64,000 nucleotides of DNA from Cyanobium sp. FGCU6 (lineage in GTDB: Bacteria > Cyanobacteriota > Cyanobacteriia > PCC-6307 > Cyanobiaceae), in contig JANWUR010000002.1 in NCBI GenBank assembly GCA_024958655.1, positions 248,001 through 312,000 on the forward strand, written 5' to 3'. Positions 47,825 to 52,775 of the stretch are shown here, piece by piece (position 1 is the stretch's first letter; every line of letters starts with the position of its first letter). The notes under the pieces were generated by a model. It made no database searches. It was not told the DNA's origin and saw only the letters and a program-made list of their open reading frames with translations. The translations under genes were made by a program, and so were the position numbers.

Positions 47825-49216
47825 ATGCAAACCCTCGCGAGCCGCTCAACGCCCGTCTCCGCCATGTCAGTGACACCCCCAACCTCCGCCACTCCAGGGC
47901 TGCGCCGCTGCCTTGGCCCAGCGGCGATCCTCGGCCAGTCCCTGGCCACGGTCGGGCTCACCCTCACGGCCGTTCTCAACATTCCCGATGTGCAGCAGGC
48001 TGCAGGGAGAGCCACCTGGCTCGCCTATGCCATCGCCCTCGCGGTGATCTTGCTGGTAAGCGAGACATTGGTGCTTTTCCGCCATGAGCCCGCCCGCCCC
48101 ACCGGCATCGCCGGTTATGTGGAGGTGGGCCTGGGCCAGGGTGTCGGCGGTCTCGCCAGTTGGGCAATGCTGCTGGGCTACGGCGCCGCAGCCCTGGCCT
48201 GCATGGCTTTTCTCGGCTCCTACCTCAGCTTCCTACTGTCACCCCTGGGGCTGCCGCCGCTGCCCCTGGCCACCTTTCTGGTCGGTGCCCTGGCCAGCCT
48301 GGACCTGGCCCGCCGCGACGTGCGTCTCTCAACCACCACCATGCTGCTCACCGAGACCTTCTCGGTGCTGATCGTGCTGGGGCTCTGCCTGGCGGTGCTG
48401 CATCAGGGAGGTGCGGCGGCTGATCTGCAGGCGATCGATCCCAGCGGGGACACGGGCTCCCAGGTGCGCGCCGGGCTGATGGTGGCCGTGCTCAGCTTCA
48501 TGGGATTCGAAAGCGCCGCCAACCTCGGTCAGGAAGCGCTGCGGCCGGAGCAGGCCGTGCCCCGGGCTCTGCGGACTTCGGTGTTGGTGGCGGGTGGGCT
48601 GTTTCTGTTCTGGGCGGTGGTGCTCAGCGAGGGGCTGGGCTGGTTGCCGGCCGCGCAGCGCACGGCCCTCGATCCGATCACCCTGCTCGCCGATCAGCTC
48701 GGCCAGAGCGGTTCCGGCCGCTGGATCCAGTTCGGCACATTTCTCTGCCTGTTCGGCAGCAGCCTGGGCAGCCTCACGGCCTTTGGCCGTTTGGGTCTGG
48801 GGCTGGCCAGGCAGGGGGTTCTGCCACGCCGCCTGGCTGCCGTTCACCCCCGATTCCAGACTCCCGCGCCAGCCATGATTGGCCTTGGGCTGCCGATCAT
48901 CGGCTTCGGTGCCGTACTGGTGCAGCGGGGTCTGCCCCCGGAGACGCTCTACAACCTGTTTGGAGGGGTCACGGTGCTCAGCTTCCTGCTGGTGTACGGG
49001 CTGGTGGGGGTGTCGAGCATGAGAACGCCGCTGGCTGGCTGCAGGCCCTGGCGCAGGGTGCTGACAGGGGTCTGCTCCCTAATGGCGGTGTTGGCGGTGG
49101 CCTGCGGCTATCTCTGGGGGGTGATCGGCCACCAGAACGGCCTGCTGATCAGTTTTGCCGGATTGATCGGAATCGGAGCGGTGCTTACCGCTCACCGCTC
49201 TCGGCGCATCGGCTGA
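47825..49216 (+). CDS. APC family amino-acid permease
   Basis: A 463-residue multi-span protein with the APC core: LGPAAILGQSLATVGLTLTA at the N-terminus, ARPTGIAGYVEVGLGQGVGG, SFMGFESAANLGQEALRPEQ (the conserved GFE-x-A-x-x region), and about 12 hydrophobic segments in total. It would exchange or import amino acids or amines; the substrate is not evident. The ATG at 47825 or the one 13 residues later are both plausible. Confidence 0.85.
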   Translation: MQTLASRSTPVSAMSVTPPTSATPGLRRCLGPAAILGQSLATVGLTLTAVLNIPDVQQAAGRATWLAYAIALAVILLVSETLVLFRHEPARPTGIAGYVEVGLGQGVGGLASWAMLLGYGAAALACMAFLGSYLSFLLSPLGLPPLPLATFLVGALASLDLARRDVRLSTTTMLLTETFSVLIVLGLCLAVLHQGGAAADLQAIDPSGDTGSQVRAGLMVAVLSFMGFESAANLGQEALRPEQAVPRALRTSVLVAGGLFLFWAVVLSEGLGWLPAAQRTALDPITLLADQLGQSGSGRWIQFGTFLCLFGSSLGSLTAFGRLGLGLARQGVLPRRLAAVHPRFQTPAPAMIGLGLPIIGFGAVLVQRGLPPETLYNLFGGVTVLSFLLVYGLVGVSSMRTPLAGCRPWRRVLTGVCSLMAVLAVACGYLWGVIGHQNGLLISFAGLIGIGAVLTAHRSRRIG

Positions 49217-50105: not shown

Positions 50106-52775
50106 TCAGTTTCCCTTGTGAAACGGACAGCCGCCGGCAGCCTGGGGCTGGGCGCTGAGCCAGGGATCGGGCTGGAGAAAGAAGTTGGGCTTGAGGATCT
50201 GTTCGCCGTCAAAGCTGGCATGAAAGGTAGGCGTGAGTGATGCTGAGATCGGCGGCACCACGTAACGGCGATCCACCTGCACGCTGCGGCCGCACTGGTG
50301 TTCGCTGGCGCTGAACTCCATGAACGAGCGGGTCAGCGTGTGGTGATCCGCCATCCGCACCCCTGCCTGTGCATAGGAGTGAAGCACCGCCACATTGAGC
50401 TCGACCACGGCACGGTCGCGCCAGAGACTGCGCTCCGAGCTGGTGTCCAGTCCCAGTCTGGCGGCAATCAGCGGCAGCTGGTTGTAGCGGTCGAGATCGG
50501 CGAAATTGCGGGCGCCGATCTCGGTGCCCATGTAGAAGCCGTTGAACGGCGCCGCCGTGTACTGAATGCCGCCGCAGTCAAAGGCCATGTTGCTCACCGC
50601 CGGCAACGCATACCAACGCAGATCGAGCTCCGCGAACCAGGAGTACTCCGGATGGCGGATCGGCACCTCCAGAATCAGTTCGCGCGGCAGCTCAAACCAG
50701 CGGGGCGACCGGCCAGGCCGCTGAATGACGATCGGCAGCAGATCGAAGCGGCCCCGCTCGCCCGGCTCCCAGCCCATGGCGAGCAGCGCGTCGGTGAACG
50801 CCAGCTGCATCGGGTCTCCCAGGATGGAGCCATCGCTCTGCCGGTAGCCCGCATAGCGGCAGAACTGCGGATTCCAGATCCGCCGGCCATCGGGCTTGAA
50901 CACCGTGATCGTGGAGCGCAGTTCGCCGCCATTGGTGGCGGCGGCAATGTGATCGAGGATGGCCTCGAACATCTCCTCCTCGCTCTCAAGCTCGCGCCGA
51001 TCGCGCACATCGAGCTCATGCCAGAGATGCCGGCCGAGGCAGCGGGTGGCATTGCGCCAGGCGAGCCGGGCACCCGTGGCGAGTTCGTCGTAAGTGTGGC
51101 TGTAGTGACCCTGCCGCTGCAGCTGTTCCTCCACCTCCGCCAGGCGCGGCTGCAGCACATCAACCAGGTTCTGCTCGCCGTAGGACTGCTGCAGAAAGGC
51201 CCGGGCCTCGCTGAGCTGGTCATGAATGGGCTGCAGCGATGGGCTGGTGGCCACCACCGGCTGCACGTCGCTGCCGGCGATGGACAGCAAGGGCCCCGTC
51301 GCGGTTGCCGCCGCACCGGGGGGCATCGGGCCGCCGGCGGCCAGCCAGCTCTCGAACATCGGGATGCAGCCGCCACAGACGGTCGTCGCCTTGGTCTGAC
51401 GGGCCAGATCGGCCAGGGTGAGCGACGGCTGCTGCTGGATCAGCTGTGCTGCACGATCGCAACGGACCCGGGCGCAGCGGCAGACGAGGTCGGCCGGGGC
51501 CCGCGGCAGCTCCTGCTGCAGCTGAAACTCACCGCTGCGGCGGAACAGCACCCGCATCCAGGCGGGTATCAGCTCACCCCGGATCAGCAGCCGTTCGGCC
51601 CGATGCAGATCGCCCCAGTGGCCCCGCACCTTCAGCGCCACCACCCGATGCTCGACCAGGGTCAGGCTGCGTTCGAGATCGCCCTGACGCCAGGTCAGCA
51701 GCTCACCGGAGTCGTGGACATCCCGGTCGCGCAGATCGAACAGGCGGAAATCAAGGCTGCGCTCCAGCACATCGACACGGCCATCGCGGCGTCGATACGT
51801 GAACAGCAGGGCGTTCTGCCCCTCGAGGCGGCCCGCCCGCCGGCTGATCACCCCCAGGGCCGGCACGATCTCGACCGGAATCCAGTCGACGACCCTGGTG
51901 CGAAGCATCTCGGCCAACGGTGTCCTGCCCTTGCAGAGACTGACGCTGGCGGCCGGACGCGGCGCAGCGGGTCGCTGATGAAAGTCGGTGGCCGCAGACT
52001 GGCTCCATCCATGCAGCAGCAGTTCCGCGACGGCGGCCTGAGGCTCCAGCCGCACGAGCTGAACTGACGCCTGTTGTTCGGCCAGGGCGAGCTCCAGTGC
52101 GGGGTCCAAGGCCTCATGAAACTGGCTGGCATCCACCCCGGTGGTGCTGCCGAGCAGTTCCAGCGCCCAGCCGGCCTCGCTGGCGCTGACGCCGGCCTGC
52201 AGGAGCGTGGCGCGCAGTTCGTCGGGGTCAAGCCGTCCATCGCCATCCCGGTCGCTGGCCTGGAACTTGAGGGCGGCAAAGCTCTCGGCACTGGAGATGG
52301 CCGTCTGCAGAGCGGAGCTGATGGCTGCCGCCGTCTGCTCCGCCGTGAACGCCTCAGGACCTTCCAGCCAGCGCTCCCCCCACCAGGGGTCGCGCAGCCA
52401 GTCCTCGATCGCAGCCAGCAGATCCTCAATAGCCAACCAGGCCAGCGGTTCGTTGCCATAGGGCCAGAGCAGCAGCCGCTGCAGGCTGAGCGCCTGATCG
52501 TGATGGCCCAGATCGGAGAGCAGCGGGCCATGGCGCAGCAGGGCAGCTCCGGGGGGACCATCAGGCAGATCCAGATGCCAGGGAGCGATCAGCAACACCG
52601 GTCGCTCGCCGGGTTCACAACGCGACGGTGACGCGCTGACCGTGTGCAGGAGCAGCAGCGGACCGTCTTCTCCCTCCGATGCTGCGCCTGGAAGCTGGGC
52701 CTGAATCCCGAGGCGCTCGGCGATCAGCCGGTTCAGCGGGTGATGGGGATCAGCGCAGACAAGCGTGGGACTCAT
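50106..52775 (-). CDS. Multidomain nitric oxide synthase (EF-hand, BFD [2Fe-2S], NOS oxygenase)
   Basis: An 889-residue protein. Residues 1-160 are unrecognised. Residues 175-186 form an EF-hand loop (DRDGDGRLDPDE). Residues about 285-425 are an unrecognised globular region. Cysteines C432, C434, C467 and C470 (CRC, then CGGC) fit a BFD-type [2Fe-2S] domain. Residues about 535-870 are a NOS oxygenase: AWRNATRCLGR with the haem-thiolate C579, PAVSNMAFDCGGIQ, FNGFYMGTEIGARNFADLDR with the arginine-binding E752, and ADHHTLTRSFMEF. No flavin reductase domain is attached. It would make NO from arginine or act on a related substrate, with an outside reductase. Confidence 0.9.
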   Translation of the reverse strand: MSPTLVCADPHHPLNRLIAERLGIQAQLPGAASEGEDGPLLLLHTVSASPSRCEPGERPVLLIAPWHLDLPDGPPGAALLRHGPLLSDLGHHDQALSLQRLLLWPYGNEPLAWLAIEDLLAAIEDWLRDPWWGERWLEGPEAFTAEQTAAAISSALQTAISSAESFAALKFQASDRDGDGRLDPDELRATLLQAGVSASEAGWALELLGSTTGVDASQFHEALDPALELALAEQQASVQLVRLEPQAAVAELLLHGWSQSAATDFHQRPAAPRPAASVSLCKGRTPLAEMLRTRVVDWIPVEIVPALGVISRRAGRLEGQNALLFTYRRRDGRVDVLERSLDFRLFDLRDRDVHDSGELLTWRQGDLERSLTLVEHRVVALKVRGHWGDLHRAERLLIRGELIPAWMRVLFRRSGEFQLQQELPRAPADLVCRCARVRCDRAAQLIQQQPSLTLADLARQTKATTVCGGCIPMFESWLAAGGPMPPGAAATATGPLLSIAGSDVQPVVATSPSLQPIHDQLSEARAFLQQSYGEQNLVDVLQPRLAEVEEQLQRQGHYSHTYDELATGARLAWRNATRCLGRHLWHELDVRDRRELESEEEMFEAILDHIAAATNGGELRSTITVFKPDGRRIWNPQFCRYAGYRQSDGSILGDPMQLAFTDALLAMGWEPGERGRFDLLPIVIQRPGRSPRWFELPRELILEVPIRHPEYSWFAELDLRWYALPAVSNMAFDCGGIQYTAAPFNGFYMGTEIGARNFADLDRYNQLPLIAARLGLDTSSERSLWRDRAVVELNVAVLHSYAQAGVRMADHHTLTRSFMEFSASEHQCGRSVQVDRRYVVPPISASLTPTFHASFDGEQILKPNFFLQPDPWLSAQPQAAGGCPFHKGN

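Follow-up and report, generated by a model that had tools for sequence, protein, structure and literature searches.

A predicted nitric oxide synthase of Cyanobium sp. FGCU6 with a calcium-binding motif, a BFD-type [2Fe-2S] domain and no flavin domain

The window, a stretch of 64,000 nucleotides from the genome of the cyanobacterium Cyanobium sp. FGCU6 (G000; 4.07 Mb, 69 contigs), carries on its minus strand an open ATG frame for a protein of 889 aa, the sole nitric oxide (NO) synthase (NOS) match in that genome. As judged from its sequence, the protein is a NOS that combines a calcium-binding motif with a BFD-type [2Fe-2S] domain in one chain and lacks a flavin part. A full-length homologue is present in G443, a genome of a different genus in the same family; further loci and genomes of relatives are designated by L- and G-numbers. 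The features of the gene are as follows.

50106..52775, minus strand: whole gene
52302..52775, minus strand: residues 1-158, N-terminal part of a predicted fold resembling NmrA and atypical short-chain dehydrogenases/reductases (SDR) (model, Foldseek, VIA)
52077..52298, minus strand: residues 160-233, EF-hand module inside the predicted SDR-like fold (four model helices)
52218..52253, minus strand: residues 175-186, EF-hand loop 1, DRDGDGRLDPDE
52122..52154, minus strand: residues 208-218, degenerate EF-hand loop 2 (alignment A2)
51882..52070, minus strand: residues 236-298, C-terminal part of the predicted SDR/NmrA-like fold (strand 239-242 plus the helices after it in the model; VIA matches covering residues 1-304)
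51498..51881, minus strand: residues 299-426, beta domain (model of residues 290-482)
51336..51491, minus strand: residues 429-480, BFD-type [2Fe-2S] domain
51225..51335, minus strand: residues 481-517, linker, the site of a FAD/NAD(P) reductase of ~240 aa in relatives
50160..51224, minus strand: residues 518-872, NOS oxygenase
50262..50273, minus strand: residues 835-838, pterin-site stretch DRRY
50118..50129, minus strand: residues 883-886, C-terminal CPFH tail

This domain anatomy is well supported. Between the window gene and its G443 homologue, the ratio of nonsynonymous to synonymous substitution (pN/pS) is 0.34 over 884 codons, a rough value given the synonymous distance of about 1.1. 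It stays below 0.5 in each of the retained domains (0.48 and 0.41 in the two SDR parts, 0.39 in the EF-hand module, 0.45 in the beta domain, 0.33 in BFD and 0.19 in the oxygenase) and reaches 0.75 in the linker. The low ratios, together with the same layout in G443, argue against an artefact or a decaying gene.

Domain anatomy of the protein

The oxygenase domain is matched by Pfam NO_synthase (PF02898) over residues 521-872, corresponding to model positions 6-361 of 362 (6e-148), and its closest solved relative by sequence is a 2flq chain (best PDB match, 2.6e-118). The signature described in an earlier, sequence-only reading of this DNA lies where it had been placed, with the haem-thiolate Cys579 in RCLGR (578-582) and the arginine-site Glu752 in GFYMGTEIG. 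The Trp pair W..W of the pterin site was found in 61 of the 69 scored oxygenase domains, the window protein not being among them; R..Y occupies the site in the window protein, L026 and L027, and P..Y in G443. With R..Y, pterin binding may be altered; the Trp pair is common, not universal, in NOS, and its absence is not decisive. The C-terminal CPFH tail, which we take to resemble haem-regulatory CP motifs, has similar counterparts in several cyanobacterial BFD-type NOS and in single-domain NOS of Flavobacteriales, which are distant from each other in the oxygenase tree. In the motif WYALPAVSN, the aligned window row agrees with the eNOS row and the 2flq row differs by an Ile; in our own reading, this would be the position at which bacterial NOS have Ile where mammalian NOS have Val, a difference linked to efficient NO release (PMC9500659).

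The cysteine motif at 432-470, ascribed to a BFD domain in the sequence-only reading, falls within a Pfam Fer2_BFD match above the cut-off (residues 430-478, 6.8e-7). Its cysteines 432, 434, 467 and 470 are invariant in all nine rows of alignment A1, and all four are kept in G443. The A1 profile reaches Pseudomonas Bfd (6e6r) at 5e-5, and VIA aligns the BFD part of the model with the same structure (Z 7.7, 53 aligned residues, 1.6 A). The NCBIfam matches over this region, to NirB, NifU and GlpA models, are weak and far below cut-off. The domain is predicted to bind a [2Fe-2S] cluster.

Two regions had been left unrecognised by the sequence-only reading. Both are present and can now be assigned, one to the beta domain and the other, residues 1-298, to what the models indicate is an NmrA/atypical-SDR-like fold split by inserted EF-hands. 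Structure prediction has both of them folded. The model of residues 290-482 has a pLDDT of 84.8, with ten-residue blocks at 84-95 over most of the beta domain. NirB has a BphA4-type C-terminal-like domain before its BFD; the idea that the beta domain is a relic of a NirB-like flavoprotein was considered and not taken up, as its VIA scores against the C-terminal domains of BphA4-type FAD reductases (Z 6.7-7.3, model residues ~45-129) are within the noise range, no Foldseek match reached E <= 0.001, and Fer2_BFD is the only Pfam family in the window row.

For residues 1-304 the model has a pLDDT of 81.5 and a pTM of 0.81. Foldseek retrieved SwaQ2 (2e-6) and SimC7 (1.4e-5) with TM-scores of 0.4-0.5, and VIA retrieved SimC7 (Z 15.8, 210 aligned residues, 3.1 A), HSCARG (Z 14.1) and fungal NmrA (Z 13.5). 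The four EF helices of the model (163-174, 184-193, 198-208 and 216-232) sit between the two halves of the SDR-like fold. By sequence the link to NmrA is weak: among seven N-terminal regions scanned, only L091 gave an NmrA match in Pfam (E 0.0079, 16.3 bits vs a 27-bit cut-off) and the other six gave none, L093 among them being a protein that lacks the domain altogether. The GxxGxx[GA] motif was not found in the window protein, nor at the first strand among 14 sequences, of which L042 and L034 are cut in the SDR-like part and L093 is devoid of it; the two matches, in L026 and L034, lie away from the first strand. Without a glycine-rich nucleotide motif behind its first strand, the SDR-like domain is probably not a working dehydrogenase.

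The EF-hand loop at 175-186, another element of the sequence-only reading, is canonical, with 12 residues and acidic positions 1, 3 and 12. The loop is more than a chance resemblance: D175, D177 and E186 are invariant (12/12 rows of A2, 10/10 rows of A3), and a PDB search with the A2 profile, which includes the relatives, reaches calmodulins at about 1e-20. The second EF-hand is intact in 10 of the 12 A2 rows and degenerate in the window protein and L026, as well as in G443. NCBIfam gave a weak match to a calcium-binding family over this region, far below cut-off. In the domain search as a whole, the NOS family matched over nearly its full length, BFD came out above its cut-off and the EF-hand below its own. 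Thus a NOS match and conservation of the EF-hand and cysteine motifs, on which the sequence-only reading had staked its claim, were both found.

Absence of the reductase and distribution of relatives

The absence of a flavin domain was borne out as well. Pfam detects neither FAD nor NAD domain families in the window protein, and a search with the L042 reductase domain turned up nothing in either NOS open reading frame (ORF), that of the window or that of G443. The distance from BFD to oxygenase, counted in the 14 distinct BFD-bearing genes that occur among 93 NOS-matching ORF rows, some of them duplicates, is 46 aa in the window protein, 50 aa in G443 and 36 aa in L033, and 273-298 aa in the other 11 genes. 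In these 11 reductase-bearing relatives, with a BFD in the same frame, the BFD stands directly before the reductase. Among nine Pfam-scanned proteins, eight have FAD_binding_6 and NAD_binding_1 between BFD and oxygenase, L033 being without them, and five (L042, L030, L032, L033, L034) have an EF-hand above a cut-off, with weaker matches in L026. No EF-hand was found by Pfam in L008-L010, which are pieces cut at the locus edge. The same domain order recurs in a second genus: the G443 protein is 67% identical to the window protein over the full length, agrees with it in layout and likewise begins its linker with GGPMPPGA.

The NOS gene is sporadic in these cyanobacteria. A profile search of 400 genomes of the window family matched two, G000 and G443 (1 of 42 in the window genus, 1 of 3 in the G443 genus), and in the phylum sample 13/386 were above the cut-off and 17/386 matched at E <= 0.001. 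The scan of genome contigs yielded 65 loci, mostly oxygenase-only matches. The N-terminal half also aligns in a Spartobacteria metagenome-assembled genome (MAG; L026), in Microseira (L042), a cyanobacterial MAG (L028), Sorangium (L029-L032), a Deltaproteobacteria MAG (L034), a Euryarchaeota MAG (L033) and the cyanobacterial genomes G163, G135 and G030; the longer version in G163 (L091) has EF-hands above cut-off. The G057 protein aligns with the window NOS from the beta domain onward. At this locus (L093:1843-5121), cyclic-nucleotide-binding domains (two stretches, 1.4e-46) replace the SDR/EF-hand part as an exchanged input module and are followed by the beta domain, BFD, reductase and oxygenase. 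Mobile spread of the NOS gene was considered and rejected on searches of phage records (two matches, both staphylococcal and oxygenase only), viral contigs (no relative confirmed) and plasmid records (0/14 cover 80% of the query).

An oxygenase tree of 73 domains, which has no outgroup root, joins the window protein to G443 (100/99); their sister is the reductase-bearing L026 (99/96), and all belong to a mostly cyanobacterial group of nine (100/97) that adjoins Sorangium and relatives (98/95). This last grouping and the colinear N-terminal alignments speak for common descent with the Sorangium-type NOS. The other seven rows of the group carry the reductase domain (in G030, in a separate frame); since the window and G443 proteins are nested among reductase-bearing rows, loss of the reductase on their stem would be the simplest reading. 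L033 sits on a long branch elsewhere in the tree. Parsimony counts two changes, and an AU test does not reject the three reductase-less proteins as one clade (p 0.159), so that one shared loss with L033 and a separate loss are both compatible with the sequences. The archaeal origin of L033 is unsure because it is a single 7.7-kb MAG contig. Four cyanobacterial NOS with frames of 1325-1362 aa, taken as the type of Synechococcus PCC 7335 (syNOS), sit elsewhere in the tree.

Frameshifts or stops appear to have broken several of the cyanobacterial relatives: G030 (L094) lies in three frames, L028 in two, L042 has a separate N-terminal frame and G167 (L095) is in pieces. A natural split into subunits was considered for G030 and dropped, as by reading a single gene with two frameshifts would account for its three overlapping frames.

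Among gene neighbours, a ferritin-like gene (L033:4234-4704; PF00210, 7e-16) stops 33 bases short of the point where the NOS of L033 is listed to begin, on the same strand; free BFD is a bacterioferritin partner, and here a ferritin-like gene adjoins a reductase-less, BFD-bearing NOS. In two genomes of different families, the reductase-bearing NOS is followed immediately downstream by a gene of the bestrophin family (L091:4982-5890 in G163, L092:5018-5992 in G135). Near the window NOS gene, an amino acid permease gene (47825-49216; PF13520, 4.2e-25) lies on the opposite strand; arginine would be one possible substrate. The segment 56220-63768 has a G+C content of 0.53-0.57 vs about 0.67 and encodes a type III restriction subunit and, by reading of its frames, a likely modification subunit and an SNF2-type helicase, making it a possible defence island.

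Electron supply and alternative explanations

The G000 genome contains one NAD_binding_1 match, in a protein of 392 aa that has both this domain and FAD_binding_6 above cut-off and CpcD below it, and which we read from its domains as PetH-like (ferredoxin-NADP reductase). One such match each was likewise found in G443, G471, G020 and G023, and the four searched genomes with a reductase-bearing NOS have 3 (G163), 2 (G135), 3 (G030) and 4 (G057). A reductase moved elsewhere in G000 was rejected, since the PetH-like protein (E 0.09) was all that a search with the reductase domain of L042 brought up there. The genome also has nine Fer2 matches and no stand-alone flavodoxin, the two flavodoxin matches lying in frames of 611 and 776 aa.

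The explanation we favor, at a probability of roughly 0.6, is that the window protein is a reduced NOS of the Sorangium/Microcoleus type, in which BFD would relay electrons from PetH or ferredoxin to the haem and the EF-hand may serve as a Ca2+ switch. The ancestral order would have been an SDR-like fold with EF-hands, beta domain, BFD, FAD/NAD reductase and oxygenase. With the reductase module missing as a unit, a linker of about 40 residues tethers BFD to the oxygenase. A reductase in trans, most likely PetH or the photosynthetic ferredoxin that it serves, would reduce the [2Fe-2S] cluster of BFD, which would hand single electrons to the thiolate haem, and the haem would oxidise L-arginine to NO and citrulline. 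Ca2+ on the remaining EF-hand would shift the SDR-like domain and so help or hinder the contact between BFD and haem. In the free Bfd system, electrons are thought to pass from NADPH through ferredoxin reductase and Bfd to the haem of bacterioferritin (PMC12363616), and by analogy PetH or ferredoxin may feed the NOS-bound BFD. That this protein binds the cluster and is active as a NOS, where its electrons come from and how calcium acts on it are points that we infer from its domains and relatives.

Several observations weigh against this explanation. The choice of PetH or ferredoxin as donor proceeds by elimination, and other donors remain in play: at E <= 0.001 the genome G000 shows 23 Pyr_redox_2 matches, some of them under the cut-off, and each is a potential reductant of BFD; G443, moreover, has a flavodoxin of 177 aa. 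The EF-hand_5 match (residues 171-189, 2.6e-4, 20.8 bits) is below the 25.9-bit cut-off, and by its sequence the window protein has one EF-hand left rather than a pair of intact loops. Single EF-hands usually bind Ca2+ weakly. With the pterin-site Trp pair replaced, catalysis could differ from that of standard NOS. Our literature search found no biochemistry on the window protein.

Alternatively, the oxygenase could act like a single-domain bacterial NOS whose haem is reduced directly by cellular reductases or ferredoxins, leaving BFD and the N-terminal half as leftovers. Bacterial NOS are usually oxygenase only and use cellular reductases (PMC6104048, PMC9311577), and the reductase module of the window protein is already gone. 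However, BFD has a pN/pS of 0.33 and keeps its four cysteines in a homologue of 67% identity, and the N-terminal half is likewise retained as a whole, which makes leftovers unlikely. We give slightly less credit to BFD as a sensor or fuse, in which NO or reactive oxygen would destroy the cluster and switch the enzyme off while electrons arrive elsewhere: reactive oxygen damages the Bfd cluster and suppresses Bfd-dependent iron release (PMC12363616), but the position of BFD directly before the reductase in the 11 relatives is that of an electron relay. That the reductase is missing through faulty assembly or through a recent deletion that disabled the gene, as the broken cyanobacterial relatives might bring to mind, is highly improbable, and an artefact or pseudogene was rejected on the G443 homologue, which in another genus retains layout and linker start, and on the pN/pS values.

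Within the reduced-NOS explanation, we suggest tentatively, as a rather speculative extension, that the BFD in cis receives its electrons from photosynthetic ferredoxin, alone or together with PetH, that NO follows light-driven electron flow, and that the EF-hand in a non-binding SDR fold gates the BFD-haem contact via Ca2+. With photosynthetic ferredoxin as donor, these cyanobacteria would make NO in dependence on light. Calcium gating, if true, would be a third route to calcium dependence for NOS, besides calmodulin and the C2 domain of syNOS, and the lost reductase would mark a return, in evolution, from a one-piece to a two-component enzyme. In two genera the reductase is gone and the iron-sulfur relay and calcium-binding part are kept, so that the window and G443 genes amount to a deletion experiment by nature on a one-piece NOS. 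The roles of the modules are thereby separated, which suggests that the BFD relay matters on its own.

Comparison with known systems

The NOS of Sorangium cellulosum (scNOS) was reportedly described by Agapie et al. in 2009. It shares with the window protein an N-terminal electron module and C-terminal oxygenase, BFD, EF-hands and an SDR-like N-terminal region; the four Sorangium proteins L029-L032 are 26-32% identical to it in the N-terminal regions and 54.5-57.5% in the oxygenase. In contrast to the window protein, which has neither, the scNOS chain contains FAD and NAD domains (2Fe2S, FAD, NAD, oxygenase; PMC3701330, PMC9311577, PMC7400543). The second EF-hand is intact in L029-L032 and degenerate in the window protein, and the CPFH tail is present in the window protein and in none of these four. 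For the N-terminal region common to Sorangium/Microcoleus-type NOS a fold can now be proposed from the models, an SDR-like domain split by EF-hands; no description of such a fold was found in a literature search of partial coverage, outside which falls the original scNOS paper, which may note it.

The sequence-only reading had taken the known cyanobacterial NOS to be of the globin type. The window protein does differ in order from syNOS, a C2-pseudoglobin-globin-oxygenase-flavodoxin-FNR protein in which calcium is sensed by the C2 domain (PMC12922734), and Pfam finds no globin or diflavin reductase family in it, while both are cyanobacterial multidomain NOS with a calcium-sensing part of their own (a predicted one in the window protein). 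A Sorangium-like 2Fe2S-FAD-NAD-oxygenase NOS, however, has been noted in Microcoleus and Crinalium (PMC3701330), and according to a 2020 figure legend the NOS of both Microcoleus and Sorangium have EF-hands and that of Sorangium also has BFD (PMC7400543). This type, represented here by Microseira L042, G163 and G135, has the same order of EF-hands, beta domain, BFD and oxygenase and differs in keeping the FAD/NAD reductase. The same difference separates the window protein from the Spartobacteria L026, its nearest relative outside the family (61% identity in the oxygenase, 32% in the N-terminal half), with which it shares the degenerate second EF-hand and the R..Y pterin site.

With Bfd, a one-electron donor to haem, the window BFD shares the fold and the four-Cys motif; Bfd is a free small protein serving bacterioferritin, whereas the window BFD is a fused domain. 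A different electron-supply design, as the sequence-only reading had put it, therefore holds in that the reductase module is absent, and not in the sense of a separate architecture, the protein being a reduced version of one already known (PMC3701330, PMC7400543). No description of a reductase-less BFD-type NOS was found in the same literature search, subscription papers being mostly outside its coverage. EF-hands, BFD and oxygenase in one NOS chain are thus already known; the new feature is the absence of the reductase module, recurring in a second genus.

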